Assembly (NCBI GenBank): GCA_021779665.1 | Contig: JAJYAG010000029.1 | Coordinates: 1 to 47,035 of the forward strand | DNA: 47,035 nucleotides | DNA from: Bacteroidota bacterium | GTDB taxonomy: Bacteria > Bacteroidota > Bacteroidia > Bacteroidales > JAAUTT01 | Direction of reading: 5' to 3' | Shown: positions 1,071 to 43,664 of the stretch, one piece after another | Position numbering within the stretch: the first letter of the stretch is position 1 | Layout of the letters: the number at the start of each line of letters is the position of its first letter | Position numbers and translations under genes: made by a program | Notes under the pieces: generated by a model | What the model was told of the DNA's origin: nothing | What the model saw: the letters and a program-made list of their open reading frames with translations, nothing else | Database searches by the model: none

Positions 1071-3077
1071 TCAGTGGCACAATACTGATTTGTCAACCTC
1101 GGAACGAACTTTACCCAGCGGTTGCCATTCGAGTTTTAAGCCATCGCCACCGCCCTGCTGAAAAAAGTAAACGGTAATTTTATGTATTCCGGCAGCTAAA
1201 GGCAATTCAGCACGTTTCTCCACCATGCCGTGCAGGTTATCATTATCAATCACCTTTTTATCGTTTATATAGAGTTGACTGCCATCGTCGGAGGTTAGAA
1301 AGAAATTGTAAACATTGGTTTCCTTTATATTCAAACAACCTTCGAATACGAGACCATAATCCTGGTTTCTGCCGCGCATTTCCAAACTGATCTGATCAAC
1401 ATTACCCGTTTTAACGGGTGTCAGCTTCGAGAAATCGGGAAGTCTCTCCCAGGCTCCTTCATAATAGCTGTAACGGAGTCCGGTTTTGGATGAATAGAAT
1501 GCCGGGATGGGTTTTACCCGGGTAAACTTCTTTTCAGAAATACTGCTTACCGCCTTGTCGTTCACAAACACACGGGCTTTTACCACAAAATCAGATTCTC
1601 GTCTCAAAACAACCGGACCTTCAGCTTTGGGTGAAGTCTTTACAGGATCGGAGCCATCGGTTGTATAACGAACTACAGAGCCCGTTACTGAAGGATTTAT
1701 CCCAAAAGAAACTTCATCAATAAAAATGGCAGCGCCCGATTTAATTTCGGGACTTTTAATTACCTGCGGGCGACCTTCGATTTCCAGCACAATTACGGTT
1801 GCAAAATCGGATTGCTTCACACCATCGAGGTTGATAAGAATATCGGAGTCAAGCCGGCTGGTTTTAATTGTTTTTTTGGGTTCGGCAAGCGGATAAGCTT
1901 TTAGTATTTTGTTTTGCAGACCAAAAACTGGCAGCACCCCTTTGGCTGGCCAATCGAAAATATGCAGATACAGCCGGGTATTTTTGCCACTTTTCTTTTG
2001 GGTAACGCGTCCCCAATGAATATCGTGGAACGGGTTGGCCGAAACTCCATAAATTGCCTCACCATTCACTTTCATCCATTTTCCAACTGTTTTAAGACGT
2101 TCCACTGAGGGTTGCGGGATTACCCCCAACGCATCGGGGCCAACGTTGAGCAGGTAGTTGCCACCTTTGGAGGCAATGTCAATCAGGTTACGAACCAGTG
2201 TTTCGGTGCTTTTCCAGTTATGGTCGTTTGCGCTGTAGCCCCAGGTACCGTTCATGGTCATGCACGACTCCCAGTTTTTGCCGGGAATACCTGTCGCAGG
2301 AATGAATTGCTCCGGAGTATCCAGATCGCCTTCCACATCACCGCCTAAACGGTTATTGGTTATTAACTCAGGATATTTCGAAAGAATGGGTGCAAATTTC
2401 GCAGCACGTTCTTTGTTCATATCGGTAGGCGTATCCCACCACAAAATTTTAGGATTATATGTTGAGAGAATTTCTTTGACCTGGGGAACGGCCACTTCGT
2501 CGAGATATTTATCGAAACTGCCGCTCTGTGCCTTGTCCCAATGGCCTGCCATGGCTGAACCACCGGGATGGTTCCAATCCTGCGCCTGGGAATAATACAG
2601 TCCGAAGTGCATCCCGTGTTTTTTGCAGGCATCGGCCAGGGCTTTCACAACATCGTTCCCATAAGGAGAAGCATCTACAATGTTAAAAGGGTCGGACGAT
2701 TTAAACATAGCAAATCCCTCATGATGCTTGGCCGTTAAGACCATGTACTTCATTCCGGCTTCTTTGGCCAGAAGCACCCATTCTTCGGCATTGAACTTTA
2801 CCGGGTTGAACTTTGATGCCAGCGGTTTATAATCGGCAACCGGAATTTTGAGAGAAGACTGAATCCATTCAGCATAATCGCCGGCATTTAATTTTTTATC
2901 GCCCCAATTACCGGCAGGAACAGCATAAAGTCCCCAGTGGATAAACATCCCGAACTTCGCCTCTTTCCACCAATCCATCTTTGGATCGTCGGCTTTGCTC
3001 TTTTGCGCATGGGCGATAGTGGCCGGTTGTAACAAAATTGTTAAAACCATTAGAAAAAATACACTTACAAGTCTCAT
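1071..3077 (-). CDS. GH29 alpha-L-fucosidase with PA14 domain
   Basis: This 668-residue secreted enzyme probably releases terminal alpha-L-fucose by the GH29 retaining mechanism. The signal peptide ends near IAHAQ. The catalytic barrel opens with WWKEAKFGMFIHWG, followed by KYMVLTAKHHEGFAMF; the probable nucleophile is Asp215 in KILWWDTP. NYLLNVGPDALG closes the barrel near residue 315. Residues about 445-520 resemble a chitobiase/hexosaminidase C-terminal domain (RYTTDGSDPVKTS). Residues about 526-668 form a PA14-type domain (YNFFLTSDDGSQLYINDKKV), which in other hydrolases contributes to sugar binding. It lies 37 bases downstream of GH95, so the two are probably co-transcribed. The family assignment is strong; fucose against another L-sugar is inferred from family. 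Confidence 0.93.
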   Translation of the reverse strand: MRLVSVFFLMVLTILLQPATIAHAQKSKADDPKMDWWKEAKFGMFIHWGLYAVPAGNWGDKKLNAGDYAEWIQSSLKIPVADYKPLASKFNPVKFNAEEWVLLAKEAGMKYMVLTAKHHEGFAMFKSSDPFNIVDASPYGNDVVKALADACKKHGMHFGLYYSQAQDWNHPGGSAMAGHWDKAQSGSFDKYLDEVAVPQVKEILSTYNPKILWWDTPTDMNKERAAKFAPILSKYPELITNNRLGGDVEGDLDTPEQFIPATGIPGKNWESCMTMNGTWGYSANDHNWKSTETLVRNLIDIASKGGNYLLNVGPDALGVIPQPSVERLKTVGKWMKVNGEAIYGVSANPFHDIHWGRVTQKKSGKNTRLYLHIFDWPAKGVLPVFGLQNKILKAYPLAEPKKTIKTSRLDSDILINLDGVKQSDFATVIVLEIEGRPQVIKSPEIKSGAAIFIDEVSFGINPSVTGSVVRYTTDGSDPVKTSPKAEGPVVLRRESDFVVKARVFVNDKAVSSISEKKFTRVKPIPAFYSSKTGLRYSYYEGAWERLPDFSKLTPVKTGNVDQISLEMRGRNQDYGLVFEGCLNIKETNVYNFFLTSDDGSQLYINDKKVIDNDNLHGMVEKRAELPLAAGIHKITVYFFQQGGGDGLKLEWQPLGKVRSEVDKSVLCH

Positions 3078-3114: not shown

Positions 3115-5586
3115 TTAGTTTTTACCATCAAACTGATAAACTCCATCAACGTCGGTGCTGAACACAACAGATTCCGGCTGAACTTCAGCCGGCATAACAG
3201 GCTTAACACCTTTAGCAATAATGGGTTTTGCGATTTTGGCATATCCATAAAAGGAATTGGCAGGAGTTTTTTTACCGGACATAAGTTGAACTTTTTCTTT
3301 GGAACCCAGGGCATTTGGAGTCTTTATCCGACAAATTCCGCCCAATGTCGACTTGATCCGCACACCGGTTACTTTGCTGTTTTTCCATTCTATGTCAACT
3401 ATAAAGCCTCCGCGCGCTTTTAACCCGGTTATGCTGCCGTTGGGCCATGATTTTGGAAGGGCGGGTAAAATATCGATTACTCCATCGTGACTTTGTAGCA
3501 ACATTTCGGCGATACCTGCTGTAGTTCCAAAATTGGCATCAATTTGAAAAACATCTCCTCCTAAAGGTCCGATACTGCTGAATAAGTTAGCCATGCTGCC
3601 CCCGTTTATCCCGGGAACCGCAGGTTGTATCAGAGTCTGTAAAAATTCGAAAGCTTTTTCTCCGTCGTGCAGCCGTGCCCATTGGCAAACACGCCATGCC
3701 CTTCCCCAACTGGTATAATTCCTGTCGGCCCTTTGTAATAGCGAATTCTTAACAGCAAAAGCCAATTCGGGTGTACGATAAAAGCTCAACTGGTTTGAAG
3801 GATAAAATCCATATAAATGAGAAATGTGCGATTGATTCTCCTGATTCGTATCCCAGTCCCACATCCATTCCTGCAACTGGCCATATTTTCCTATATGATG
3901 CGGGGGAAGCTGTGCACGCGCCTTTTTCATTTTCGTTAGCAACTCCTTTTCGTTCAAACCCAGGATTTCAGAAGCTTTTGCGGTAGCATCGAATATATCG
4001 GTTATCAGTTGGTTATCCATGGTACAGCCATAATTCATCTGGGCGGGCATGGGACTTTCCTTAGGAGAATTCTCAGGCGAAATGGAAGGTGCCAACACCA
4101 ACCAGCCATGCTCGGGTTCTTTTACCAGCATACTCAGGTAAAACGCGGCTGCGCCCTTTAACGCAGCATAATTTTTTTGCAGGAAAGCGGTGTCACCCGT
4201 ATAGAGGTAATGCTGCCAGATATGCAAACTCAGCCACGCCCCGCCCGATGGCCAGGCTCCCCACTGGGCTCCATCGACAACGCCGGTGGTTCGCCACAGG
4301 TCGGTATTGTGATGCACCACCCACCCTTTGGCTCCATACATTTTCCGGGCAGTTTCAACTCCAACTACACTCAAATCGCGCACCATGTCGAATAAAGGTT
4401 TTTCCATTTCCGGAAGGTTGGTCACCCCTGCCGGCCAATAATTCATCTGGGTGTTAATGTTGATTGTATATTTGCTGTCCCATGGCGGGCGGATACGGTC
4501 GTTCCACAAGCCCTGAAGTGTGAGAGGCTGACCACCGGGCCGGGAGCCCGAAATGAGCAGATAACGGCCAAAATGGTATTGAAGAGCTGCCAGGGAAACA
4601 TCGTTCCTGGAGTTGGCTATACGCTCATTGGTTGGCAGGTTTGAATACTCCGACTCACCAAGGTCAAGAACGGACCGGTTGAAATATTTCCTGAAATCGC
4701 TTGTATGCGCCTCTCTGAGTTGAGTATAATCTTTTGCCACAGCCTCATTCAGGTCGTTAAGAGCATCTTCCGGACGACCGGATAAATCGTTATATGCCTT
4801 ATAGTTGGTGCGAATGGCCAGGTAAACGGTAATCGAGTTCGCCTTGCTGACGGTAATAGCCGAACCAACACTGAAAGTCGTTCCTCCATTGGGAACAACC
4901 CGTGCATAAGCGTTGAGTTTCAAGGTGCCTTTCACCCTTTCATGATCGGGAGATATCATGGTCATCATCATTGTATTCGGGTCGAAAAGCGACAAAGAAG
5001 CCTGCTGCGTAGTTTCGAAATTAAGGGTTGCGCTTATTTTTTCCGGCTTATCGGCTGTCAACCTCACAACCATTACCTGATCGGGTTGCGAGATGAACAC
5101 CTCACGCTTAAACTGTACGTCATCTATCGTAAAGGTTGTGGCAGCAATGGCCGATTGCATATCGAGTTCGCGACGAAAGCCGGTACATGCATCGCCCGAG
5201 TGCATCTGAATGCGCAGGTTGCCAACCGGAACATACATCATACCATGCCCGTTTTTCGACAGCAGGTATTTATCAGCAAGTTTTTCGGCATCCTTAAACT
5301 TCTTTTCGAACTGCAGGTTACGGATTTTTTCAATATAAAAAACGCCACTGTCATTGATATTGCTGTGGGGCGATCCCGACCAGAAGGTAGCTTCGTTTAA
5401 CTGAATCTTTTCTTCCAGCGGATTTCCATAAACCATGGCACCGATTCGTCCGTTGCCCAAAGGCAGGGCTTCGCTCCATCCTGCCGCAGGTGCATTGTAC
5501 CATAATCTGGATGCATTCTGAGCCATGGTATTTGCCATTGCAAATGCTAACACAATGAAAATTAACTTTTTCCTGTAACCAATCAT
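3115..5586 (-). CDS. GH95 family alpha-L-fucosidase (or alpha-L-galactosidase)
   Basis: This 823-residue secreted (alpha/alpha)6-barrel enzyme belongs to inverting family GH95, which removes terminal alpha-1,2-L-fucose and in some members alpha-L-galactose. The frame is open upstream to 5640, but the ATG at 5586 is chosen because it begins a proper signal peptide (MIGYRKKLIFIV...NTMAQ) and avoids overlapping the upstream gene. The N-terminal domain has the family opening LWYNAPAAGWSEALPLGNGR. Catalytic signatures are NINTQMNYWP (Asn376 and Asn378), APSISPENSP (Glu505, general acid) and QIDANFGTTAG (Asp683). Length matches the family. It sits between a small secreted propeller gene and GH29, tight enough for one transcript. 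Confidence 0.94.
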   Translation of the reverse strand: MIGYRKKLIFIVLAFAMANTMAQNASRLWYNAPAAGWSEALPLGNGRIGAMVYGNPLEEKIQLNEATFWSGSPHSNINDSGVFYIEKIRNLQFEKKFKDAEKLADKYLLSKNGHGMMYVPVGNLRIQMHSGDACTGFRRELDMQSAIAATTFTIDDVQFKREVFISQPDQVMVVRLTADKPEKISATLNFETTQQASLSLFDPNTMMMTMISPDHERVKGTLKLNAYARVVPNGGTTFSVGSAITVSKANSITVYLAIRTNYKAYNDLSGRPEDALNDLNEAVAKDYTQLREAHTSDFRKYFNRSVLDLGESEYSNLPTNERIANSRNDVSLAALQYHFGRYLLISGSRPGGQPLTLQGLWNDRIRPPWDSKYTININTQMNYWPAGVTNLPEMEKPLFDMVRDLSVVGVETARKMYGAKGWVVHHNTDLWRTTGVVDGAQWGAWPSGGAWLSLHIWQHYLYTGDTAFLQKNYAALKGAAAFYLSMLVKEPEHGWLVLAPSISPENSPKESPMPAQMNYGCTMDNQLITDIFDATAKASEILGLNEKELLTKMKKARAQLPPHHIGKYGQLQEWMWDWDTNQENQSHISHLYGFYPSNQLSFYRTPELAFAVKNSLLQRADRNYTSWGRAWRVCQWARLHDGEKAFEFLQTLIQPAVPGINGGSMANLFSSIGPLGGDVFQIDANFGTTAGIAEMLLQSHDGVIDILPALPKSWPNGSITGLKARGGFIVDIEWKNSKVTGVRIKSTLGGICRIKTPNALGSKEKVQLMSGKKTPANSFYGYAKIAKPIIAKGVKPVMPAEVQPESVVFSTDVDGVYQFDGKN

Positions 5587-5633
5587 GTTTTTATTTAATT
5601 CAGAGTTAAAAATGAAAACATCGCATATTCCTT

Positions 5634-6533
5634 TCACCACGCCAAACGGGTTGATTTATTCTTAAAAACAAAAATTGTAGATACACTTTTAGCCACCGAA
5701 CCGTTTTTAATCCCCCAAACCACTTCATTGTTTTTGTTTATTTCGAAAACCTTGTATTGAGCAGTGTCTTTCTTGTGGCCTTCCCAATTTGCAACCATCA
5801 GGTTCCCATTTTTCAACTGGCAAACTTCAGCAACAAATAACATTCTGGTGCCTGAAAGAGTAGCGTTATCCGTAGTTTTTAACACCTTTCCCTGTCCAGG
5901 GTCAACCTCAACAATTTTTCCGGCATCGCCACAGGAGACCAGCCAGTTTCCATTTTTCAGGATTTTTACAGCAAATGGATTTCCTTCAACTTTGACGGTT
6001 CGGATTAAGTCACCTTTTTTTGTGATCTCAACCACTTCGCCTTTACTCATGTAAGTAATCAGATAAGTATTGTTATCTGTTGGCGAAACTTGCCTGAACT
6101 GTCCATGAACATTTTTAATACCCGTATTTAAACGAAGTACATGGATGGAATCTCCCTTCGGGTTTAATTCAATTATTCGTGAAGGATCGCCACACATAGC
6201 TATAAGGTAATTGCCATTTTTAAGCTGGGAGGCTGTAAAAACCTCCTCACCCGGCAAAGCTTTGAAGTCCCACAGAACCTGTTCTTTCAGAGTTATCAAC
6301 CGTGCGCCTTTTTTGTAGGCATATAAAACATTACCTTGTTTTGTAATTTCAGCGTCATTACTTTCTTCTCCCTTTCCAAGCATGTGCTTCCAAACTATTT
6401 GCTGCGTTTCTTTTTCGACAATGCGCAGGTCGTTGTTTCCGCATCCGCTTATCAATAATTTATCCTGTCCAAAAGAGCTGATGGCATTACTGACTAATAA
6501 AGCCGAGAAAATGATTTTTAAAAAGTGACTCAT
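5634..6533 (-). CDS. Secreted NHL/PQQ-like beta-propeller protein
   Basis: This is a protein of about 299 residues with a signal peptide (MSHFLKIIFSALLV...SSFGQ) and repeated propeller blades. Recurrent units such as LKNGNYLIAMCGDPSRIIE, LKNGNWLVSCGDAGKIVEV and LKNGNLMVANWEGH are spaced about 45-60 residues apart. No catalytic residues were recognised. An in-frame ATG pair at 6572/6569 inside the upstream gene could give a longer product; 6533 is preferred for the signal peptide. It directly follows the heme/SUMF1 fusion gene and precedes GH95, so it belongs to the redox block by position. Its role (ligand binding, scaffold or enzyme) is unknown. Confidence 0.75.
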   Translation of the reverse strand: MSHFLKIIFSALLVSNAISSFGQDKLLISGCGNNDLRIVEKETQQIVWKHMLGKGEESNDAEITKQGNVLYAYKKGARLITLKEQVLWDFKALPGEEVFTASQLKNGNYLIAMCGDPSRIIELNPKGDSIHVLRLNTGIKNVHGQFRQVSPTDNNTYLITYMSKGEVVEITKKGDLIRTVKVEGNPFAVKILKNGNWLVSCGDAGKIVEVDPGQGKVLKTTDNATLSGTRMLFVAEVCQLKNGNLMVANWEGHKKDTAQYKVFEINKNNEVVWGIKNGSVAKSVSTIFVFKNKSTRLAW

Positions 6534-6561
6534 TTGCCTGATTCGTTTTTTTTTCCCACTT

Positions 6562-9500
6562 TCACTCATCATTATCCTCAATAACAACTCTGAACCCTAC
6601 GTTAAATACCTTTTGATATTCACGGTAAGGGATCCGGAAAGAAGCTGTAGACCGGAATGGGCGGTCGTACCACGACCCGCCCCGTGCAACACGTTTGACA
6701 TTTGCAGGTTCTGTTGCATTGCGCCCGTCTTCTTCACTATAAGGATACGATTTGTACATCGAAAGCGTCCATTCCAGTACGTTGCCATGCATGTCGTACA
6801 AATCCCAAAAATTAGGGATGAAACGTCCACCTTTTTCTGATAAAAAGCTACCATCGTTTATAAGTGTGTCCCGGGGTACCCAGTCGTCATATTTATTCGG
6901 ATTATGAATCAATCGTATTGTTTCATAGTTTTTTTCTGCAGTATTAACAGCGAAATCGCGCAGGCGGATATCTCCCATATTTGCATAACGAGAAAAATCG
7001 CTTCCCAGATGGCCAAACCAGAATGGCTTATTGCTGCCGGCCCGACATGCCCATTCCCATTGCGCTTCGGTTGGCAGGCTGCATTTTAGTCCGGTTTGTT
7101 TCGACAGCCATTTACAAAAGTCCATCGCTTGTTGCCACGATACACGCACTACGGGTAAATCGGGATCATTCACCGGGTAGCATTTCTGTCCGAATTGATA
7201 ACCGTGCATGTCTTCAGATCGGGAGTCGTGTGCAGGATCGAACACTCTGAATTGTTCATTTGTAATTTCGAACTGGCCCATCCAGAAACTTTTCCTGATT
7301 GTGGTTTTGGTCATTGGCATTTCATCGGGTTGCAGAATGCTCCCCATGATAAAGGAACCAGCCGGAATATGTATGAGGTTTAATGTAACATTTTCAGATA
7401 ACCGTATGGTCTTTTTAATCTGTCCGGTTGCCAATTGAATGTCGTCAGCATATTTTCTGTCGAAAGGCCAGCCTGATGCAATTGTATCTCCCTTTTGCAC
7501 CTTCGGGGCTGAGGGAACTACCGGATTAATAACACTCACGGGTTCGGGCAAGCTCTCAGGTTCTTCAGGAGAAAGACCAAACAACCCGGCGTTCTTGTTT
7601 CTCAAATCAATGGCGTACCGGGAGCGTTCAAATGCAGGAATATCTTTTCGTGTGCCGTGAAAGGGTGCGTTGAAGTCAATCCAGCAGGCTAGTTTCTCAA
7701 TTTCGGCCGGAGTGAGCTTAACGCCTTTATGTCCTTTATTCAACATTTGCATCAACTCTGTCTGGTCGGCATGAAATTCCATTGGAGTAAGCATGTGTAA
7801 ATCGCCTTCGATACCCGGACGGCGCACATAGCGGTGCAGGTTTGCATAAGAAACTGTAAAATGACCGCCAATTTCCTTCGAAGCGGAACCACTGATTTTC
7901 GACGACCAGTCGCTAATGTATTTATCGCCTTTCAGGTACAGAATTTTCGGATTGGATTCGTTATGACAACTAACACAATTTGCATCCAGTACCGGCTGTA
8001 CCTCGTGGCGATAACTGAATCCACGTGCATTTCCATGCCACTCTTTTATTTGTTGCGGCTTTTTTACCGATGCAAGACTGGGTTTTGGTATTGGAATCGA
8101 ATTCCGGGATTCGTGACAACCGATGCACGATACCGATTCGCCCGGCATAGCGGTAAACCAGCTTCGCATTAATTGCACCGCTTTGCCTTCTTCGTCCAGA
8201 GGCTGTAAAAATATGGGCTTGTTGGCTGGGATAGTGAACATTGCGGAACCATCCGGCTCAACATCGACTGTACCAAGTATTTGTTTAACATCCCAGGGAC
8301 CGTCCATCCCGATGGTACCTACCAGTCCGCCCTGTGAAAGGGTACCAAAAGTATAAGAACCAACGCGAAGTTTCTTTACAGCCCCTTTGGGAATATCTTT
8401 CAGGCCACCGCCGGTATAAATATCCTGTATAAAAACAGTTGCCGTTTTTGAATCGGGAATTATCCGGTCAGGTATTACCGAAGGTGTTTTACGTTTTTCC
8501 ATCAGAACCGGTTCGAGATATGCAACTCCTTCTTCTTCTTTTATAAGCGTCATATTACCATTTGTATCAGCAAGGTAAAGGCCCCAGAGGGAAGTGGGCG
8601 AAGGTTTCACAGCCACAACTATGTATTTATCGCTTAGCGGAAAAGGTTGCAAAAACATTGGATAAATGCCATCAGGAAAACGATCGCGCACCAAAGGTTC
8701 TACTTTACGGTCGGGATAAGGAATTTCACAAACCACACCATCTGCTTCATGACGTCCTTTCATCGGGTCGATAATCATTAACCGCCCACACCGTGCAACG
8801 CTATGATGTCCGGTAGCTACACCAACAAAAGCTGTAGGATGATTGGGCACCGGACGTGACCCAAAAAACGCTGTAGGAAAATATGAGTTACTGCCATAGT
8901 AGGCTTGCTGACTTGTTCCGTCGGGATTCATTGTGAAGATTATCCTCGAGTTGGAGTGCGCCAGATCGGCGTATTCCCATCGTTGATAAAGAATTTGTCC
9001 GTTGTTTAAAACTACAGGTCCCCAGTTACTGTCCTGGTCGAAGGTTAATTGACGACTTACCTTTGTTTTAGGATTATATTGAAACAATCCGCTCATTTTA
9101 TTCCCTCCATAAGTACAAGGTAGTCCGAGAAATGTAGCCGTAGAACAAAAAATAATGCGGTCATCGGGAGTGTAGCAGCCATCGAAGCTGTCAAAATCCC
9201 TGAAGGTATCAGGGGTAACCTGCTTTACTGATTTAGTTACGGTGTTTAGCTCAAACAGATGCCAACGGTCGTTTGTACCAATAGAAGAAAACAACAACCG
9301 TACCCCATCAAAATGAGGTTCCGGATCGGCAATAATTCGCCCGGAATGGGGCTTATACAAGGTTTTTTCTTTAAGACCTCCATTTGTTGCGCTAATAACA
9401 ACAAATTCATTTGTCCAGCCTTTCAGCGGATTAGGAATTTCGGAATTGTTCTGAAAATTGGATGGCCCTACCCCCAGTTCCCGGTTCATTGCTTGTCGTG

Positions 9501-9867
9501 CTTTGTCGCCAAGTTGACGGCGAACAGCAACAATTTTTTTGTTTTCAATAAGTGGGTTGCCTAATAAAATTCCATCAATTGACTTTAATAAAAGCTCAGC
9601 TTCAGCAATGGCTTTAACATCTCCCAACCTGATACTTTTGATTAAATTGCTCTTTCGTAAATCGTAATCAGCAATTATCTTCTGCAACTGGTTAGTGTTG
9701 AACTTTTCAGGAGCTGTTTTTTGTAAATCGACCATTGTTGCGTTCAACGATTTCGACGAATACCAATTCAGACGATTTATAATGTCGTGTGGTTTTGGAG
9801 TTGCAACACACTCAAAAACAACCAGCAACAACATTACGATTATGCATTTAATGCTTCTTAGTATCAT
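6562..9867 (-). CDS. HzsA-like propeller / c-type heme / SUMF1-domain fusion protein
   Basis: This 1101-residue exported protein has three parts. After a signal peptide (ending near ECVATP), residues ~130-570 look like a WD40/TolB-type propeller as in hydrazine-synthase-alpha-like proteins (ADPEPHFDGVRLLFSS, DRWHLFELNT, NPDGTSQQAYYG). Two c-type heme sites follow: CIGCH at 581-585 and CVSCH at 631-635. From about residue 828 to the end is a SUMF1/EgtB/PvdO domain (PAGSFIMGS, LPTEAQWEWACRAG, DMHGNVLEWT, RGGSWYDRPFRSTASFR, GFRVV). The copper-binding active-site cysteines of true formylglycine-generating enzymes are absent in the RGGSW segment, so sulfatase activation is unlikely. It lies in the PUL between a di-heme cytochrome gene and a propeller gene. 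Function unknown; extracytoplasmic redox is inferred from the hemes. Confidence 0.85.
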   Translation of the reverse strand: MILRSIKCIIVMLLLVVFECVATPKPHDIINRLNWYSSKSLNATMVDLQKTAPEKFNTNQLQKIIADYDLRKSNLIKSIRLGDVKAIAEAELLLKSIDGILLGNPLIENKKIVAVRRQLGDKARQAMNRELGVGPSNFQNNSEIPNPLKGWTNEFVVISATNGGLKEKTLYKPHSGRIIADPEPHFDGVRLLFSSIGTNDRWHLFELNTVTKSVKQVTPDTFRDFDSFDGCYTPDDRIIFCSTATFLGLPCTYGGNKMSGLFQYNPKTKVSRQLTFDQDSNWGPVVLNNGQILYQRWEYADLAHSNSRIIFTMNPDGTSQQAYYGSNSYFPTAFFGSRPVPNHPTAFVGVATGHHSVARCGRLMIIDPMKGRHEADGVVCEIPYPDRKVEPLVRDRFPDGIYPMFLQPFPLSDKYIVVAVKPSPTSLWGLYLADTNGNMTLIKEEEGVAYLEPVLMEKRKTPSVIPDRIIPDSKTATVFIQDIYTGGGLKDIPKGAVKKLRVGSYTFGTLSQGGLVGTIGMDGPWDVKQILGTVDVEPDGSAMFTIPANKPIFLQPLDEEGKAVQLMRSWFTAMPGESVSCIGCHESRNSIPIPKPSLASVKKPQQIKEWHGNARGFSYRHEVQPVLDANCVSCHNESNPKILYLKGDKYISDWSSKISGSASKEIGGHFTVSYANLHRYVRRPGIEGDLHMLTPMEFHADQTELMQMLNKGHKGVKLTPAEIEKLACWIDFNAPFHGTRKDIPAFERSRYAIDLRNKNAGLFGLSPEEPESLPEPVSVINPVVPSAPKVQKGDTIASGWPFDRKYADDIQLATGQIKKTIRLSENVTLNLIHIPAGSFIMGSILQPDEMPMTKTTIRKSFWMGQFEITNEQFRVFDPAHDSRSEDMHGYQFGQKCYPVNDPDLPVVRVSWQQAMDFCKWLSKQTGLKCSLPTEAQWEWACRAGSNKPFWFGHLGSDFSRYANMGDIRLRDFAVNTAEKNYETIRLIHNPNKYDDWVPRDTLINDGSFLSEKGGRFIPNFWDLYDMHGNVLEWTLSMYKSYPYSEEDGRNATEPANVKRVARGGSWYDRPFRSTASFRIPYREYQKVFNVGFRVVIEDNDE

Positions 9868-9971
9868 TTTATCTTGTTTTTCGATGAGTTCCTATTTATA
9901 ATTTTTGCAATACCTGGTTCTCAAAAAACGGGAAGCGTAAAGTCGCCTGTTTTTAGAAATTACAACCTGAA

Positions 9972-11774
9972 TTACAAGGAATTAACATATTCAATCAATT
10001 CTTCTATTTCAGTTTTTTTGACCAATGAAGCGTCTCGTATCCCATGTTTGTACTTTACGAACACTTCGTTCAAACTGGCTGCTCTTCCGTTGAAGAGGTA
10101 AGGAGCAGTGCGCCAGACCTCGGTAAGAGTAGGTGTGTCCCAGCCGTTTTCGAATTCAATATCCTCTCCTATCCGATGCATTTGCAAATTGGTATGATAT
10201 TCACCGGAATGACAATGAATGCACCCCATTTGATTGAAAACAGCTTTACCTGCAATTGCTTTTGATGATAATTCCCCATTTACCAGGTAAGGACTTGGAA
10301 CGGGTTTAAGACTTCTCAGGTAATTATCAACACACTGGGCTTTTTCCTCTGGTATATCGTAAAATTGAATAAGCCTGAATCCCTTCCGAACCGCGAGTTC
10401 CGCACTGGCACGAATGCCCGAAATCATACTTGGAGGTGTTACATGCGTTAACAGCAGGCTTTTGCAATTTTTCGAATTACCTATTCCATCGTTCATTAAA
10501 TCCCAGTTCATACCATCAGTCCGAGCCTCACCGGGATGACAACCGCTGCACGATTGCCAGTTCTGAAAACAAAATGAAGCATCGTTGAAGTATTTTTCAC
10601 CTTTTTGTTCACTGGTTTCAATCCGGTTTTTCAGTAAGCCTATTGCTTGTAAAGATCTATTTTCCAAGTCGAGCATATTAATGGTGTCCGAAAAATAGGT
10701 TGGTATATAGGCTTTGTTCCCGTAAACAGCAAAATTCCGGGGTCCGTTGCCTTTAAGGGTAATACGTTCCCTTATTCCATATAAAAAATTGAGATCATAG
10801 GACAAGGTACTTTTATCATTGTAATTTTTGAACTTTTCGATGAACTTCTCCTTATCTATCACGCTGATTTGGTGAGTACCATACTGTGTAACCAGTATAT
10901 CCTTTTTGGTGCAGGCAACACCCCATAATCCCCCCGCTCCCATCTCGGGCTCATCGAGCAGAACGGCTCCTTCATACGACATTGCTGGAATGTTCACCAC
11001 GCTCATGGCGCTGGTATTCATCCATCCTTGCTGAATCTGGCTGGTCGGTACCTGAAACCGCCCCAGATTATGCACCACCAGCAAATATTCTCCGTTATCA
11101 GTGATGCACAGCGACTGAACAGCATTGCTCCCGTTGGCAAGTTTTATATCTTTGATTTTGATGAATTTTTCGATATCAATAACGGAAACACAAGCGGCTA
11201 CGGTGTCGACATTGGCTTGCTGGGCAGGCAGATAGTTTGCCACAAACAGGTATTTCTCATCCTTACTTACTGCAATGGCGCGTGGTTCGCGCAGTACATC
11301 CACAGTACGGGTAACCCTGTCGTTTTCACAATCTACTTCCGAAACAGTATTGCTGAACTGGTTGCAAACATAAATTTTACTGAAATCGCTGTTTGGAGTT
11401 GGTGCTGTTGCCCCGGATCCGGTTGGAAGTGAACAAATTTTTTCGGTTGTTTTTAAGTCAAAAACATGCAACATCCCACGTTGCTCAAAAGTGGTTACAA
11501 AAAGCCTGTTGTTGCTCACGGCAATACCCGTGGGAATCTCGTCAAATTGCCAGTTGTGGAGTTGCTTTGAAAAATCGGGGTTGTATAAAACAACAGACTT
11601 TGTTCCTTTTTGCGAAACAAAAACTCCATAACTGGCTGAAGCTTTGATGTCAGTTATAAATAAAGGAGTATCTGTATGCGGGACCGAATTATCCTTCGAC
11701 AGGTTAAATGATACCAATATCACTGAAAGCAATGGTATCAGAAGTCCCAGGATGTGTTTTTTATTTACTGTCAT
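9972..11774 (-). CDS. YVTN-type beta-propeller fused to di-heme MauG/cytochrome c peroxidase-like domain
   Basis: This 600-residue exported protein has an N-terminal membrane or signal segment (LGLLIPLLSVILVSF). A beta-propeller covers residues ~40-370, with repeats such as NNRLFVTTFEQRG, FSKIYVCNQFSNTVSEVD and DEKYLFVANYLP. The C-terminal di-heme domain has CSGCH at 409-413 and CIHCH at 518-522, and the MauG/CcpA-like tail TPTLTEVWRTAPYLFNGRA. Related proteins oxidise protein or small-molecule substrates through high-valent heme, or reduce peroxide; which applies here is not shown. It lies 51 bases downstream of the discoidin-tailed GH29 and 104 bases upstream of the heme/SUMF1 fusion gene, so all three are likely in one operon. 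Such redox genes are uncommon within a PUL. Confidence 0.87.
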   Translation of the reverse strand: MTVNKKHILGLLIPLLSVILVSFNLSKDNSVPHTDTPLFITDIKASASYGVFVSQKGTKSVVLYNPDFSKQLHNWQFDEIPTGIAVSNNRLFVTTFEQRGMLHVFDLKTTEKICSLPTGSGATAPTPNSDFSKIYVCNQFSNTVSEVDCENDRVTRTVDVLREPRAIAVSKDEKYLFVANYLPAQQANVDTVAACVSVIDIEKFIKIKDIKLANGSNAVQSLCITDNGEYLLVVHNLGRFQVPTSQIQQGWMNTSAMSVVNIPAMSYEGAVLLDEPEMGAGGLWGVACTKKDILVTQYGTHQISVIDKEKFIEKFKNYNDKSTLSYDLNFLYGIRERITLKGNGPRNFAVYGNKAYIPTYFSDTINMLDLENRSLQAIGLLKNRIETSEQKGEKYFNDASFCFQNWQSCSGCHPGEARTDGMNWDLMNDGIGNSKNCKSLLLTHVTPPSMISGIRASAELAVRKGFRLIQFYDIPEEKAQCVDNYLRSLKPVPSPYLVNGELSSKAIAGKAVFNQMGCIHCHSGEYHTNLQMHRIGEDIEFENGWDTPTLTEVWRTAPYLFNGRAASLNEVFVKYKHGIRDASLVKKTEIEELIEYVNSL

Positions 11775-11825
11775 TTTTAACGTTTGCGCTATTATTGCTG
11801 ACTCAAAATCCTCAGATTCAAAAAC

Positions 11826-13595
11826 TTATTTAACCGGTGGAAACAACTGAAACTCTTTGATTCCGGCCAGGTATTCGCGTTGGCTTATTACTAACCTAAA
11901 ATAGCGGGCTTTTACGGGGAATAACTCTTGTTCCCACTCGCCCATTTTTGTATCCTTCACCCAGCTTACCCACTGATTATTTTTCATGTATTGAATTTCG
12001 AAACTTAAAATCTTCGATTGGAGCAACACCCTTTCCGAGAGTTTTACGCGCCCTACGGTTTGCTCTTTCCCCAAATCTACTTCAAGCCAGCCACTGGTAT
12101 CAAAAATAGCTTTGATATCATCCTTGCTTCTGACATAATGAGTTGTGCTACCATAATACTTCTGAATATCAATATTTTCTCTACGCCCGGGCACCCAGAA
12201 TGTAGACATATCATCGTCGAATGCCGCTGTAGGATCGTGTAAAAACTGACCCACCGAACTTGATGCATTGGCCTTGTGGTTATAAGCAAAAGACCCGGTT
12301 GTCGAAAATGGCTTGATAATACCCAATTTAACTGCCGGCACACTGATTTTCAACTCGATGGTAGTGGCAATAGCTTGTCGCGCGTTGGCTGGCACAATGA
12401 TTTTAAGCCATTTCCTGTTTTGAATAACAGACAACTTCTCGCCATTCAATACCTTAGCATCTAAAACCTTAGCACCCAGTGGCGGTAATTTTACAGTATC
12501 ATTTAAAAACTTCAATACATGAAGAAAGACTGAGTTTCCATTATAAGTACAAAGTATATTTGGTGAGGGCGAATATGGCCCACCTTTGGTTTCATAAACT
12601 GATGTAGCGATTGGTTTCAGCCAGTTGCCAAATTCATTGAGACGAACCTGAAAATCTACCGGAATAACACCCAGGCTATCCGGCCCAACGTTGAGCAGAA
12701 GGTTTCCGTTGCCACCCACACACCGGAGTAATAAAGTTGCAGCTTCGTTAATAGGACGGGGAGTATCGTTGAAACGCCATGCCCACTGATGTCCAAGATT
12801 AGTGCAGGTTTCCCACGGAATGGCTCCATATCCGGCTACAAAACCCTCGGGTGTGGCATAATCGCCATTAGGACCAATGTAACTATGCGATTCATCGGTG
12901 TGTAAAACATCGAGGCGGTTATTTACAATTATCCCGGGTTGAAGTTTGTTGGCCAAATCATAAATAAGATGAGGCTTAACCGGCGACGGACCACCCTCAT
13001 AGTCAATCCACAACAAATCAATTTTTCCGTAATTACTAAGCAGTTCGCGAATTTGTTCGAGCACCCTTGCCTCAAAAATATCATTGGATTTCGGGTTTCT
13101 GCAATCTGGGTCTTTCCAATCGGCAGGCGAAAAATACCAGCATATGGGCATTTTTGCTTTATGAGCCGCATCGGCCAGCTCTTTGCAAACATCACGACCA
13201 AAAGGTGCTTTCACAATATTATAATCAGTGGTTTTGGTATTCCACATACAAAAGCCGTCGTGATGCTTTGCCGTAAACACCATGTACTTCATACCGGCAT
13301 TCCTGGCAATTTCAACCCATTGTTCGGCATTGAAATTTGAAGGATTAAAGCGTAAATAGAGCGAATCGTATTTTTGAGTTCCAAAATTTCCGCGCGACCA
13401 TGAAATTTCTTTTCCGATAAGCGAAACAGGTCCCCAGTGGATAAACATTCCGAAACGGGCTTCCTGCCACCATTGAAGTTTGGGCTGATTAAAATTGCGG
13501 TTAGCTGCCTCTCCGTTCTTTTGTGCATAGGAATAAAGAATGATGCACAAAAACATAGACAGAAATATTATCCTTTTGTAAAAATTAGGTATCAT
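11826..13595 (-). CDS. GH29 alpha-L-fucosidase with C-terminal discoidin (F5/8, CBM32-like) domain
   Basis: This secreted GH29 of about 589 residues uses the ATG at 13595, which begins a good signal peptide (MIPNFYKRIIFLSMFL...YSYAQ). The frame stays open to 13688 but that extension has no signal-like character. Catalytic segments are LQWWQEARFGMFIHWGP, KYMVFTAKHHDGFCMW and DLLWIDYEGG with probable nucleophile Asp198. The barrel ends with NLLLNVGPDSLG. Residues about 436-589 form a discoidin-type sugar-binding domain (DDDMSTFWVPG, WLEVDLGKEQTVGRVKLSE, ARYFRLVI). The start codon overlaps the stop of a 40-codon signal-peptide ORF (ATGA), an odd arrangement discussed separately. It differs clearly from the two other GH29-type proteins here, suggesting different fucosyl linkages. 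Confidence 0.93.
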   Translation of the reverse strand: MIPNFYKRIIFLSMFLCIILYSYAQKNGEAANRNFNQPKLQWWQEARFGMFIHWGPVSLIGKEISWSRGNFGTQKYDSLYLRFNPSNFNAEQWVEIARNAGMKYMVFTAKHHDGFCMWNTKTTDYNIVKAPFGRDVCKELADAAHKAKMPICWYFSPADWKDPDCRNPKSNDIFEARVLEQIRELLSNYGKIDLLWIDYEGGPSPVKPHLIYDLANKLQPGIIVNNRLDVLHTDESHSYIGPNGDYATPEGFVAGYGAIPWETCTNLGHQWAWRFNDTPRPINEAATLLLRCVGGNGNLLLNVGPDSLGVIPVDFQVRLNEFGNWLKPIATSVYETKGGPYSPSPNILCTYNGNSVFLHVLKFLNDTVKLPPLGAKVLDAKVLNGEKLSVIQNRKWLKIIVPANARQAIATTIELKISVPAVKLGIIKPFSTTGSFAYNHKANASSSVGQFLHDPTAAFDDDMSTFWVPGRRENIDIQKYYGSTTHYVRSKDDIKAIFDTSGWLEVDLGKEQTVGRVKLSERVLLQSKILSFEIQYMKNNQWVSWVKDTKMGEWEQELFPVKARYFRLVISQREYLAGIKEFQLFPPVK

Positions 13596-13714
13596 AAGGT
13601 ATGAGTTAGATAAAATTTGACATCGGGTCCAGGCATGTTTTGCTGAGCATTGGACACTATCCATGAGAAGGATAGCAGGACAATACATGCGAGGTAACTT
13701 TTATATTTTCTCAT
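13592..13714 (-). pseudogene. 40-codon signal-peptide ORF, probable 5' stub of a lost secreted gene
   Basis: An ATG at 13714 opens a 40-codon frame with a textbook signal peptide (MRKYKSYLACIVLLSF, then SWIVSNAQQ). It continues for about 17 residues (NMPGPDVKFYLTHTL) and ends at a TGA overlapping the GH29 start codon as ATGA. The mature part is too short to be a domain. Because the downstream GH29 has its own signal peptide, this looks like the beginning of a secreted protein whose remainder was deleted. A real small peptide or a translation-coupling leader for the GH29 is possible but less likely. Confidence 0.5.
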
Positions 13715-13739
13715 TTTTTATTTTTTAAGATTTACAAAC

Positions 13740-13928
13740 TCAGCCTGGCCATTGATCTGCAGAGTCAGGTGCATGATTGGGCAGCACGGTTGTTTGCTGT
13801 ACCGTTACTTTTGCCCTGTAGTTAGCGATCAGGTCAGCTTTCTGTACCTTTTCCTTCCATGCCGGAAACATGCCTTTGTTTATTAGTTGCTTTATCGATT
13901 TTATTATCCACAATAAATCGTTACTAAA
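13740..13928 (-). pseudogene. C-terminal remnant of an unidentified protein
   Basis: A 62-codon open frame after a TAG ends in TGA at 13740-13742. It has protein-like composition in its last ~45 residues (MFPAWKEKVQKADLIANY, then VTVQQTTVLPNHAPDSADQW). The only internal ATG is at 13871, and upstream sequence in this frame is full of stops. The ORF ends just 25 bases before the signal-peptide stub, which is normal operon spacing. I read it as the 3' end of a gene whose front is gone. The parent family was not recognised. Confidence 0.4.
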
Positions 13929-14243
13929 CTAACTCTTCCTAAACTTTAAAAATTGAACTATTCTGTCAATTCATTGCATAAACACGACAATCACAGTGTT
14001 AAGAGATTATTTTATCCCGTCGTGAATGATAATTTTTTATTTTAATGCCTGAAAACGAACAGGCAAACCTCCTATAATGAAAGATTGGCTGACAATAGCA
14101 AAAGTATTGGCCACCTCCCGTTTCGTAAAACCTTCTTCTTATTTCTTCTTACAAATTCTTACATAATCCACTATTTCCCATATGTTGGGCCGGGTTCATT
14201 CCGAAGTTAGCGACTGCCGGGCCCAGCTGGTATTTTCACTATT
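13929..14243. other. Intergenic stretch between GH16 and the gene-remnant scar
   Basis: These 315 bases contain stops in all minus-strand frames and no recognisable gene. A minus-strand TACTTTTG at 14099-14106 matches the Bacteroidota -7 consensus TAnnTTTG, but no clear -33 TTTG sits upstream, so a promoter is only weakly supported. A 5-bp stem (gcctg/caggc, about 14046-14063) lacks a T-tract and is not a convincing terminator. A longer imperfect dyad (tgggcc/ggccca) spans about 14188-14227. Confidence 0.4.
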
Positions 14244-15737
14244 TTATTGAATGATTATTTTCTTTGAAAAAACAGAGTGCCTGTCACTTACGCGCACAAG
14301 GTAAACTCCGGCATCATCAAACCTGACCGTGCTTTCGCCTCCAACAACTTGTTTAGTGCTGATTAGCGAACCTGTCGGATTAAAAACCTCAATCCTACAG
14401 TAAGTTCCTGATTTCACCATCAGGGTGTTTCCTCTTAAATGAATATCAGCAGGGACAGCCCTGATTTTTGGAGCCATGGTAGCAAGTCGTTCGTAGATTC
14501 GCACATAATCAACCTCCATTTGTGTTCCGTTTATAGCATCTGTTATTTCTCCAGCCCAGGGAATAATGGCTTCACTGAGGTAAACCGGTGCCGGGCTGAA
14601 GCAAAAATTATTCTTTATTCGGCGCATTGCCTTACCGTCGAAATAATAAATCAGCGAGTCCTCGCTCCATTGCAGACCATAAATATGAAATTCCTTACCC
14701 AGGTTCATTCCGGATTGAGAGGCATCGAAAGTGGCAATATCCACCCAGGTGGTTCCATTGAGATACTGCACTTTATAATTAGTTATTAAAGCATTCCAGA
14801 TTCCGTCGCTTTGCCAGCCATTTACAAACTGAATGCAACCAATGGTTTGGTTTGAAATAAATTCAAATTCGAGCCATTTTTCTCCGGCAACCTGCGACAC
14901 CCAATGTTTAACCAATCCACCATCAGCCACATTCTGAACTTCGTATCCGGCTCCATACACGCCACTGCTAGTGATTTTTGTCGACGGATCGCGCACGAAA
15001 TTCACCAGTCCGTTTACATCAGTATCTGCTGTTGGTGAGAGAACAGAAGGATATCCGGCAGCATTTACATTATAGATCCTGAATTCCTGAATGTGAAAAT
15101 GAGAGCCAAAAGTGGATGAAAAGCGAAAGCGTTTTGCAGTTACCGGGGTTTCGAGCTGGATATTAATATCGGGTTTTGCTGTGGAAAAGCTAAACGACTT
15201 GCTGGATGTGGGATGGGTGGATTTACCTGTAACCGGATCGGTAGTTACATCGGTCCAGTTATGCACATTGGTGGCCATTTCAGCAGGATAATGCCCCTCG
15301 TTGATGTCGATTTCAAACTTCTTTCCAATAGCAGGTGTGGTGCCGGTTGTCATGATCCAGAATGAATTGTTTGTTCCGGTTGCGGCAGCATATTTATACC
15401 GACACTCGAAATAACCATACTGAAACTTATTTTTAGTCCAGATACTTCCTGAAGTCCACTCCTGACCCCCTCGCGACTCCTTTTTATTGACAAGTTTCAG
15501 GGTACCATCGCTTACCACGGCATTTTCGCGCCAGCGGCTGCATAAAATCCAGGTTTGCGGTCCATTGACCGAATACCAGCTTGCATCGAGCTGCACATCA
15601 GGATAATCGAACTCGTCAGCCCACGAAAGTTTCCAGTTACCGGCACCACCGGGTAATATTGAAGTAGTTACCTGACCATAAGCATCGCAGGTAAAAACAG
15701 CCAAAACCATTAACACAAAACCAAAAGACCTCCTCAT
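14244..15737 (-). CDS. GH16 endo-glycanase with inserted discoidin-like domain and T9SS tail
   Basis: This 497-residue secreted enzyme has a signal peptide (MRRSFGFVLMVLAVFTCDAYG). The GH16 fold follows: KLSWADEFDYPD, ENAVVSDGTLKL, GSIWTKNKFQYGYFECRYKY, then the active site EIDINEG with Glu142 (nucleophile), Asp144 and Glu147 (acid/base). This E-x-D-x-x-E form is the beta-bulge type found in laminarinases, agarases and carrageenases. Residues ~190-345 interrupt the fold with a discoidin-like segment (VTAKRFRFSSTFGSHFHIQE, EKWLEFEFISNQTIG). GH16 resumes at KEFHIYGLQWSEDS and ends MEVDYVRIYE. The last ~65 residues resemble a type IX secretion sorting tail (CRIEVFNPTGSLI, GVYLVRVSD, FSKKIIIQ). 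It is the only T9SS cargo seen, so probably the surface or extracellular backbone-cutting enzyme. Confidence 0.88.
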   Translation of the reverse strand: MRRSFGFVLMVLAVFTCDAYGQVTTSILPGGAGNWKLSWADEFDYPDVQLDASWYSVNGPQTWILCSRWRENAVVSDGTLKLVNKKESRGGQEWTSGSIWTKNKFQYGYFECRYKYAAATGTNNSFWIMTTGTTPAIGKKFEIDINEGHYPAEMATNVHNWTDVTTDPVTGKSTHPTSSKSFSFSTAKPDINIQLETPVTAKRFRFSSTFGSHFHIQEFRIYNVNAAGYPSVLSPTADTDVNGLVNFVRDPSTKITSSGVYGAGYEVQNVADGGLVKHWVSQVAGEKWLEFEFISNQTIGCIQFVNGWQSDGIWNALITNYKVQYLNGTTWVDIATFDASQSGMNLGKEFHIYGLQWSEDSLIYYFDGKAMRRIKNNFCFSPAPVYLSEAIIPWAGEITDAINGTQMEVDYVRIYERLATMAPKIRAVPADIHLRGNTLMVKSGTYCRIEVFNPTGSLISTKQVVGGESTVRFDDAGVYLVRVSDRHSVFSKKIIIQ

Positions 15738-20956: not shown

Positions 20957-22557
20957 TCATTCCTCCACTTCAATCCTGAAAAAATCAAAATCAGCAGGTA
21001 TTTTTTTACCGGTTCCCCGGTTGAAGCTGTAAACCCCGGTCATCATTCCCATGAATGGCCACTGCGTTGTGCCCTGATCGCTCAGGAAAGCAGCATCCGG
21101 AATATCCCCTGCACTTATCCAGTTTTTGCCATCGTAGCTGTAGTAAAAACTGCGTTGCAGTTTATTGACCGCCATACGCAGGTAAACGGTATTGCTCTTG
21201 ATATCCTCAGTCACTTGCAGTACCTTTTTCACGCCGTAACGTCGCTCTTCGAGCACGAGCTGCAACTTGCCATCGATGCCTCTTTGCATCCCCAGTCGTG
21301 CCCATGTCTTGGTGTCGTAATGTCCGGTAATACCGGCCTGCTCTTTCGTATCGGGATTAAAAGTAAGCTTCGTTGTTGCGGAAAATTTCAACCATCGTTC
21401 GCGCTGAACAATCAGGTTGCGACCCAAAATGGTGTCGATATCGAAATATCCGGAATAAATCCGCAGATGTCCTTTCTTCTCTGTCAGACTGAAATCGGCG
21501 TACACCGGATTTCTGCGGAAATACCACTGGATGCCCAATTTTGAGCTGCTGAACTCATCGCTGGAAGGATTTACCTGCGGTGTCCAGGGCAGATTGGGGC
21601 GCACGTTGGTGTCCAGCGGACCCTTGCCGTCGTTGGCAATAGGCCAGCCATCTTTCGTCCATGATATTTTATACAGTGATGTCTCACGCCCTAACTGATT
21701 GATTCCTTTTCGTTGGTAAACCACTCGTCGTTTTGTGTTTTTACCAGCTTACCGTGTCCTTGATGGAAGTTAATGGCCGTGCTGTCTCTTTGTGCCAGAT
21801 AGGGATTGTAGAGTGAATTTTCGAATGGGCCATATACCGATTTCGAACGGGAAATGAGCATGTGATGTCTGTTAAACAGACCACTCGAAGCCGCCATGAT
21901 AAAGTAGTAATATCCATCTTTCTTCAACATATGCGGACCTTCGGGTGCGGTTTTTTCGCCTTCGGTTTCTATCCAACGCGGCTCTTCTACCATTTTGGTA
22001 CACTCTTTATATAACTTTACAATTTTGGTGCCTTTACCCAGCTGAATACCGGCTGCAAAAACCATATAATGATCGCCATTATCGTCCACAAAATGCGAAG
22101 GGTCGCTGCCAAAATTGGTAATTTGAACCGGCTTGCTCCAGGGCCCCAATATGTTTTTCGATTTCATCATGTAGTTGCCGCGAACGTTGGTAGTGCGGTC
22201 TTTGCTCAACTGAACCAGGCAGTAAAAAATATAAAACTCGCCGTTGTAATACGAAATATCGGGTGCCCAAATGCCCATTCCATCAAAGAAATAGGTCAAA
22301 TCCAAATCCTCACTTTTCGAAAAGACGTGACCAATCTGATGCCAGTTTACCAAATCTTTCGAATGGGAAATTACGATACTGGGGAAATACTCAAACGTAG
22401 AATTGATTGTGTAATAGTCATTACCCACCCTGATGGTAGAGGGATCGGGGAAAAATCCCGGAATAACAGGATTGGTGTAGGTTTTTGGGGCCGGGCTTTG
22501 AGCCTGAACCTGTTTGAATAGCAACAATGCTAATGCGATTAACAGGAAGTTTTTCAT
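20957..22557 (-). pseudogene. GH43 family enzyme split by a frameshift
   Basis: Two adjacent frames together make one GH43 enzyme of about 530 residues. The first (22557 to stop at 21691) has a signal peptide and the full catalytic propeller: YTNPVIPGFFPDPSTIRVG (base Asp), NFGSDPSHFVDDNG (pKa-modulating Asp) and KTAPEGPHML (acid Glu). It ends abruptly after NDEWFTNEKESIS. The second (from about 21724 to 20957) continues as VYQRKGINQLGRE and encodes the last blade plus a GH43 C-terminal concanavalin-like domain (RRNPVYADFSLT, AGITGHYDTKTWARLGMQ). Reading shifts right after the Trp codon at 21721-21723, consistent with one lost base or two gained. It is either a recent pseudogene or a base-calling error. 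Without the second half, the beta-sandwich that normally supports the active site would be lost. Confidence 0.88.
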
Positions 22558-33344: not shown

Positions 33345-33436
33345 CTTATAAAACTTTTTAATTGTGTAAGACAAAAAAAATATGACTTTCCTGAGATTTC
33401 ATCCTTTTATTGAACACTATGAATTTAAATGGTGAA

Positions 33437-35206: not shown

Positions 35207-35225
35207 ATCAGTATTTTTATTTTTT

Positions 35226-38297: not shown

Positions 38298-38365
38298 AAA
38301 ATTGATTTTTAAAATAGTTAGCAACTTAATTTATTATTACTGATAATTACTGATCATTTTTATAG

Positions 38366-43521: not shown

Positions 43522-43664
43522 CCGGATTATATTTTGCCAGTCCGCAAGTGATCCAATACATTGTATTTACTAAGGACAATGGACTGAAAGCTATGGACTT
43601 TTTTTAATTGGCATTAATGAATAAAAACCTAAATTAGTAACACATTTACATAAACAACTGCACT

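Follow-up and report, generated by a model that had tools for sequence, protein, structure and literature searches.

The 47,035-nucleotide stretch of DNA analysed here (the window: the whole of contig JAJYAG010000029.1, GenBank assembly GCA_021779665.1, from a Bacteroidota bacterium of the order Bacteroidales) contains a block of three co-directional genes (positions 5634–11774, minus strand) located between glycoside hydrolase (GH) genes of families GH29 and GH95. We found that two of these genes encode homologues of the subunits of hydrazine synthase (HZS) of anammox bacteria, i.e. an alpha subunit carrying a C-terminal domain of the formylglycine-generating enzyme (FGE) type and a fused beta-gamma subunit. 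Sequence, profile and structure comparisons agree that the block encodes an HZS-like alpha-beta-gamma complex, but not a hydrazine synthase. The reading we prefer, with a probability of roughly 45%, is that of a diverged HZS-like complex with four c-type heme sites and a small propeller partner, which would act as a two-site periplasmic enzyme on a small molecule derived from a glycan. The first-pass annotation of this region had described three in-line genes with CxxCH motifs at residues 409 and 518 of one protein and 581 and 631 of another, the latter (1101 residues) with a SUMF1-type domain; the open reading frames (ORFs), motifs and domain were all found as described. It had missed the link with the hydrazine synthase family: both heme proteins have their homologues among the subunits of a single known complex.

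The 1101-aa protein matched the Pfam families HZS_alpha (PF18582; residues 495–586, E 1.5e-33) and FGE/SUMF1 (PF03781; residues 831–1095, E 6.9e-42). In a profile search of the PDB (28 rows), chain A of the anammox HZS structure 5C2V was the sole match for the alpha part (E 5.4e-16), and the same chain occupied the top row in the comparison of the AlphaFold (AF2) model with known structures (Z 31.4 over 566 residues, root mean square deviation (rmsd) 3.1). The model has a mean predicted local distance difference test (pLDDT) score of 86.4, and 5C2V chains also head its Foldseek list. The match to the NCBIfam hydrazine synthase alpha profile (E 2.8e-13) reached 48.7 bits against a curated cut-off of 800. 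Both CxxCH motifs align with the alphaI and alphaII heme sites of HZS. Across 54 aligned alpha rows (the window among them), 53 retain the first site, and of the 52 that extend as far as the second site 51 retain it; the odd row at both sites is L044, for which a wrong-strand ORF was used. Since His713, invariant in 41/41 rows, lies within one alignment column of anammox His772, a bis-His alphaII heme is likely. Further invariant residues (His354, His355, Cys251 and His880, each in 41/41 rows) are specific to this family. In one related locus (L131, positions 10538–14593, G417:C45) the alpha is present as two adjacent ORFs of 708 and 638 aa.

For the 600-aa protein the best NCBIfam match was NF052342 (hydrazine_BC; E 1.1e-19, 70.1 bits, curated cut-off 1250). 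Its PDB sequence matches include chains C (1.2e-13) and B (1.5e-13) of 5C2V, ranked below the top hit, the archaeal propeller 1l0q, which was matched through the propeller part. The AF2 model (mean pLDDT 81.8) gave 5c2v_B as the top row (Z 41.5 over 330 residues, rmsd 2.9), with 5C2V chains again heading the Foldseek list. Both gamma heme sites, aligned with those of the anammox gamma subunit, are kept in 27/27 beta-gamma rows (window included). The conservation of the sites across the alpha rows and all of the beta-gamma rows shows that the heme motifs are not chance occurrences. The histidine of a C-terminal "HG" motif (His577 in the window), kept in 25 of these 27 rows, is probably a heme ligand. 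A cysteine in the gamma part (Cys437, within KNCKS) is shared by 12/27 rows, mostly closer relatives, the others having Thr, Val, Asn or Ala; it could provide an additional heme link.

The two heme proteins belong together. Beta-gamma (E up to 1e-20) and HZS_alpha were each detected in 21 of 295 Bacteroidales genomes, and 20 contained both (Fisher 8e-29; by genus 4e-22, 16/17 genera). In 17 of these 20 genomes the two subunits are encoded at most 10 kb apart on one contig, while in the other three, all of one genus, they lie on different short contigs holding parts of the same module. The exceptions to co-occurrence are G408, with a beta-gamma gene only, which ends 388 bp from the end of a contig, and G416, with an alpha only. 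In addition, a beta-gamma gene was present somewhere in 23 of 24 genomes reached through alpha loci (E up to 1e-15; the miss is G700), 23 of which had been entered through loci without such a gene in the stretch examined. Genome G624 and that of locus L012 are apparently identical, so the two samples are not fully independent.

The third protein is a small propeller without a CxxCH motif. Its gene starts either at a TTG that overlaps the alpha gene or, which is more likely, at an ATG at 6533, 28 bp past alpha. Relatives were found in 12 HZS-like loci searched (including L005, L014, L015, L032, L034, L048, L140 and L148) and in 0/12 control regions.

The mechanism proposed for HZS comprises the formation of hydroxylamine at a gamma heme, its passage through a tunnel to an alpha heme, and condensation there with ammonium (PMC12607021). 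The window complex resembles the anammox enzyme (5C2V; Kuenenia hzsA, hzsB, hzsC) in the folds of alpha and beta, in gamma at the level of sequence, in the number of heme sites (two each in alpha and gamma), and in the residues of likely bis-His hemes. The fusion of beta and gamma also has a precedent in Scalindua, as hzsBC (PMC10732223, PMC12758564). Given that subunits and heme number are the same as in HZS, a true hydrazine synthase, or another enzyme of the nitrogen cycle, had to be considered. The residues that distinguish hydrazine synthesis, whose roles were taken from PMC12607021 and PMC12758564, have however been lost. At position +4 from the histidine of the first alpha motif (alphaTyr591), Tyr occurs in 6/6 anammox rows and in 1 of 62 FGE-fused rows (L007), Asn being present in 49/62, including the window (Asn589). 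As a control of the numbering, all six anammox rows have Tyr at position 591 and His at 689 and 772, and four of them have Cys at 303. GammaHis144, gammaCys165 (the third thioether) and gammaAsp168 are found in 5/5 anammox rows and in none of the 27 family rows. The spacing between the alpha CxxCH motifs is 102 in anammox and 47–51 in 61/62 FGE rows (the exception is the outlier L058), i.e. about 50 residues fewer. The scores are equally distant: in the positive control, 17 of 294 Planctomycetota genomes exceeded the NCBIfam cut-off for the anammox alpha, with full-length matches at 1518–1606 bits and one partial match at 1065, and the best listed genome without one scored 87 bits. On the basis of these residue controls and sub-cut-off scores we rejected hydrazine synthase as the identity of the block, and a role in nitrogen conversion is extremely improbable. 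Both catalytic pockets are changed and the hydrazine-making residues replaced, and therefore a use other than hydrazine synthesis is probable.

The di-heme domain had initially been called MauG-like. This term remains appropriate for the two-heme fold, which is shared with MauG and bacterial cytochrome c peroxidase (CCP), but not for the identity of the protein: the window gamma is fused to a propeller and paired with an alpha subunit, and HZS subunits rank first among the family-profile and structure matches of the protein. In addition, the Trp named for CCP/MauG at the gammaHis144 position by Hagglund et al. (PMC12758564) has been lost. In the family this column contains mostly Ile (16/27, including Ile451 of the window), not Trp as in that paper, the remaining rows having Trp (6), Val (2), Ser (2) or Thr (1). 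MauG and CCP were therefore rejected as labels. The same column bears on the idea that the block serves detoxification or as an electron sink in the periplasm, as a peroxidase or NO-reducing di-heme enzyme active during glycan degradation. The gamma domain does give weak CCP/MauG family matches, and reduced anammox HZS gamma binds NO (PMC12607021). However, all six Trp-containing rows belong to one distant group (L143–L147 and L149), and a co-inherited alpha subunit would be superfluous for a stand-alone peroxidase, which makes this explanation unlikely. In the distant group alpha is short, and beta-gamma carries an additional heme motif at its N-terminus; the neighbours in L146 are of the FG-GAP/ASPIC, Rid-like, DAHP-synthase-like and solute-binding-protein types.

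The presence of an FGE-type domain beside a di-heme MauG-type fold could also point to protein maturation, in which the block would modify another enzyme (a sulfatase or a quinoprotein, for example). Formylglycine-generating enzymes carry a copper-binding cysteine pair in their C-terminal part. In the alpha family, none of 41 rows has a CxxxxC motif after residue 1056 (the C-terminal FGE region), and no cysteine column in this region is common to more than 12 of them; sulfatase maturation was rejected for lack of this pair. Moreover, a Pfam scan of 20 window proteins revealed no sulfatase, and conservation is also lacking at the Trp position. We thus regard a maturation role as very unlikely.

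In a tree of 97 alpha-like rows (built with a quick method, long branches being flagged), 61 of the 62 FGE-fused rows fell into one set with a support of 100, and the anammox alphas were separate, also with a support of 100. The lone FGE row outside the set, L058, is on a very long branch. Of the 68 rows of the set, seven lack the FGE domain: six stop at a contig end and L035 ends 154 bp short of one. The set spans Bacteroidota, Planctomycetota, Lentisphaerota, Kiritimatiellota, Verrucomicrobiota and Hydrogenedentota, together with one bin labelled Pseudomonadota. The closest relative of the window alpha, with which it pairs in the tree, is L034 (83% identity). The alpha of L019, from a bin labelled Akkermansia, groups with Alistipes alphas, for which we offer mis-binning or transfer as a reading. 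HZS_alpha is rare in a wider sample of Bacteroidota (any match in 17/395 genomes, 13/395 over the cut-off); it is present, however, in the named strain Parabacteroides faecalis AGMB00274 (L032), whose genome (G693) also encodes a beta-gamma subunit.

HZS-like genes outside anammox bacteria have been described as clades I–IV, including Planctomycetota (Hagglund et al. 2025, PMC12758564), and from Phycisphaerae, with a proposal that they form a broader family with other substrates (PMC10732223). How hydrazine synthase arose is a matter of debate, and no function has been tested for its relatives (PMC12758564). As in the window, alpha genes of the non-anammox clades lie close to a fused beta-gamma gene, and the hydrazine-making residues have also been lost in clades I–III. 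AlphaHis772 is reported to be missing from clade I (PMC12758564); in the window family, an invariant His is its likely counterpart. Because clade IV contains Thermogutta, and a Thermogutta alpha (L021) falls within the FGE-alpha clade, the two may coincide. In the available text, Hagglund et al. name Bacteroidota only for beta-gamma, whereas the window genome has the alpha as well; the words carbohydrate and sulfatase are absent from the main text of that paper. We found no description of HZS-like relatives in polysaccharide utilization loci in the open-licence literature, most of which was represented by listings. Within that literature, the setting in such a locus, the FGE fusion and the surplus of alpha genes are additions to what is known of HZS-like proteins; they also set the window complex apart from anammox HZS.

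The features of the window are summarized in Table 1. Since a SusC/SusD pair is present, we consider the cluster to be a polysaccharide utilization locus (PUL), and the pair and the GH genes are oriented in the same direction. The run of genes around the block includes SusC/SusD, three GH29, GH95, GH97, GH43, GH2, GH16 and a GH141-like gene. The beta-gamma gene is preceded by a spacer of only 51 bp and separated from alpha by 104 bp. By-eye inspection revealed a hydrophobic N-terminal stretch in all three block proteins, which are therefore likely to be extracytoplasmic, as had been supposed, and are probably exported. The host genome contains cytochrome c assembly genes, and some sister clusters have copies of their own.

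Table 1. Features of the three-gene block and its surroundings (positions in the window)
Feature	Position	Strand	Basis or remark
GH29 alpha-L-fucosidase, downstream	1071–3077	-	PF01120, E 4.3e-91
GH95, downstream in operon	3115–5640	-	PF22124, E 3.3e-159
Small beta-propeller, probably exported	5634–6587	-	PF22701, Mala_s_1-like, E 1.4e-49
HZS-alpha-like subunit with C-terminal FGE-type domain, 1101 aa	6562–9867	-	PF18582, PF03781, 5C2V chain A
FGE/PvdO-type domain, residues 831–1095	6583–7377	-	Without conserved cysteine pair in C-terminal part
CxxCH 631–635	7963–7977	-	Counterpart of heme alphaII site
CxxCH 581–585	8113–8127	-	Counterpart of heme alphaI site; Asn at His+4 for Tyr591
Fused beta-gamma subunit, 600 aa	9972–11774	-	Beta propeller, then MauG/CCP-type di-heme domain
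CxxCH 518–522	10209–10223	-	Counterpart of heme gammaII site
CxxCH 409–413	10536–10550	-	Counterpart of heme gammaI site
Beta-propeller part, residues 32–373	10656–11681	-	Range aligned to 5c2v_B
GH29 alpha-L-fucosidase, upstream in operon	11826–13688	-	PF01120, E 6.3e-73
SusD (33509–35287) and SusC (35226–38324) pair	33509–38324	-	

Several other features of the locus were recorded. A GH43 catalytic ORF (20957–21724) and a GH43_C2 ORF (21691–22557) on the minus strand overlap out of frame, and probably represent a single enzyme broken by a frameshift or an assembly error. An ORF at 31866–33374 (minus strand) combines GDSL esterase and alpha/beta-hydrolase esterase domains. Adjoining SusC are genes for a FAD_oxidored protein and a sodium/solute symporter (38366–42309, minus strand); next, on the opposite strand (42502–44657, plus), come genes for a LacI-type regulator and a TIM-barrel isomerase-like protein. 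This region is a possible second redox step of the same PUL.

Neighbouring genes were scanned in three sets of loci, of (i) 14 loci (108 of 113 neighbours, five HZS-like ORFs being left out), (ii) loci not labelled Bacteroidota (86 of 97 listed ORFs, 16 of 17 loci; omitted were four HZS-like ORFs, an alpha-overlapping ORF of L016, a giant ORF of L045 and all five of L047), and (iii) 10 loci represented by 74 hand-picked proteins, L160 being omitted as it lies on the same contig as L012. The control set comprised 95 proteins from 12 arbitrary regions, and the tallies cover the 25 commonest families per scan. In some Bacteroidota loci the neighbours belong to GH95, GH29, GH2, GH43, GH97, DUF5703 and SusCD. 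Of the loci not labelled Bacteroidota, L031, L046 and L053 contain GH29-like genes. Two settings were seen in Bacteroidales. In the first, the HZS-like genes lie among GH genes (the window, L034, L008, L140 and L148); those of L034 are accompanied by GH95, GH97, GH43, GH39, GH2 and DUF5703, and those of L008 by GH95 and DUF5703. The second is a module of IclR, beta-gamma, a chorismatase/Rid-like protein, a D-lyxose/mannose-isomerase-like protein (LyxI), Dak1, Dak2, an LsrF-type aldolase, the small propeller, sometimes GH92, alpha and a cytochrome c assembly gene. It is incomplete in some loci, not every gene being found everywhere, and is partly present in a Kiritimatiellales bin (L053). The IclR, chorismatase-like, lyxose-isomerase-like, Dak1, Dak2 and LsrF-type genes recur with HZS-like genes in L131–L136, L007, L010 and L011, and possibly encode an unknown sugar pathway. 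The LyxI-like protein matched 7nzo (2.9e-7) and is a lipoprotein by inspection, and the aldolase scored 459 bits against a cut-off of 297. The chorismatase/Rid-like gene adjoins beta-gamma in several loci and was present in 14 of the 21 beta-gamma genomes (Fisher 1e-11); the window genome has it on a different contig. As an obligate partner it was rejected, since 14 of the 28 positive genomes (among 295) lack beta-gamma: it is enriched, not obligate.

Of 15 Bacteroidota-type loci, the window being one, 5 have a GH95 gene close to alpha, as against 0/12 control regions (Fisher 0.047), a comparison biased toward the loci by their length (up to 23 kb, versus 13 kb for the controls) and involving a weak match in L004 (23%) as well as L019 with its conflicting label. 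In several Bacteroidota alpha loci (e.g. L012), none of the families looked for yielded a gene belonging to one or the other setting. The link with sugars is thus real in part of the Bacteroidales, with GH or LyxI–Dak1–Dak2–LsrF neighbours, and is not family-wide, because GH95 accompanies only a third of the Bacteroidota-type loci and no carbohydrate family among those listed is common outside this phylum. This goes halfway towards the outcome that the first-pass annotation had named as refuting its view, homologues mostly away from carbohydrate genes. The first-pass interpretation thus has partial support, and its view of the block as a component of fucosidase PULs as such is not supported at this frequency. 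It is conceivable that the block consists of passenger genes, i.e. that the complex has a job of its own and its location in a PUL is incidental, and the wide variation of the neighbourhoods across loci and phyla, together with the GH95 frequency, agrees with this. We nevertheless find it improbable in view of the tight operon spacing and of the GH contexts of the nearest relative, L034, and of L008, L140 and L148.

The same annotation had stated that known PUL models include no oxidative step of this kind, which was too strong: oxidative demethylation by a P450 is known in porphyran use (PMC10033563), and the two cases would have in common a heme redox step tied to carbohydrate degradation. 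The P450 belongs to a different enzyme class than the window block. Its compartment is probably also different.

Several observations weigh against a two-site enzyme acting on glycan-derived molecules. Within the AF2 model, gamma is predicted with low confidence (stretches at residues 419–437, 449–455 and 525–547), and gamma is absent among the structure matches listed for the beta-gamma model; because of this poor modelling the assignment of gamma rests on sequence. The zinc ligand alphaCys303 is not kept, the window column being Pro, although this position is weakly defining, with Tyr or Ser by numbering in 2/6 anammox rows; Cys251 of the window, considered as its counterpart, was rejected as it aligns elsewhere. 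The LyxI of the sister module had no match in the window genome, in a search without a positive control and hence weak. In the 16 loci not labelled Bacteroidota, the top carbohydrate-active family (GH127) accounted for 2 of 86 neighbours, among the best 25 of 161 families. Finally, the excess of alpha over beta-gamma matches in the positive genomes (36 versus 25) compares unequal searches (Pfam domain at 1e-3, whole protein at 1e-20), completeness is only 61% for one genome that contributes five alphas, and the PF18582 counts include alpha-like proteins without FGE.

We still favour a diverged HZS-like complex that would work as a two-site periplasmic enzyme in the manner of HZS. By analogy, the gammaI heme, supplied through the gammaII heme, would perform redox chemistry; its product would follow the beta propeller and reach the alphaI heme, where the alpha subunit would finish the reaction on a second substrate. 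The surplus of alpha genes, some of which stand alone next to SusC/SusD or GH2 (L157, L159), suggests that several alphas are served by one beta-gamma, and since alpha genes outnumber those for beta-gamma, it may be the alpha with its FGE-type domain that sets the substrate. A small molecule released from the fucosylated glycan (a sugar or a substituent), and not NO or ammonium, is the most likely substrate in the window PUL.

A wider, doubtful extension is that HZS-like complexes form a general two-site, tunnel-linked heme machine with exchangeable alphas, in which a shared beta-gamma engine would be combined with alpha-FGE proteins that fit the substrates of each PUL. Anammox HZS might then be a late specialization, and the window PUL would perform an anaerobic, heme-dependent modification of a glycan-derived molecule. 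The FGE-alpha clade has conserved residues of its own, and the Bacteroidales complex, found in a named strain and inside a PUL-type operon, provides a handle on the role of the wider HZS-like family. If the preferred reading is true, a heme redox step would be added to glycan use.

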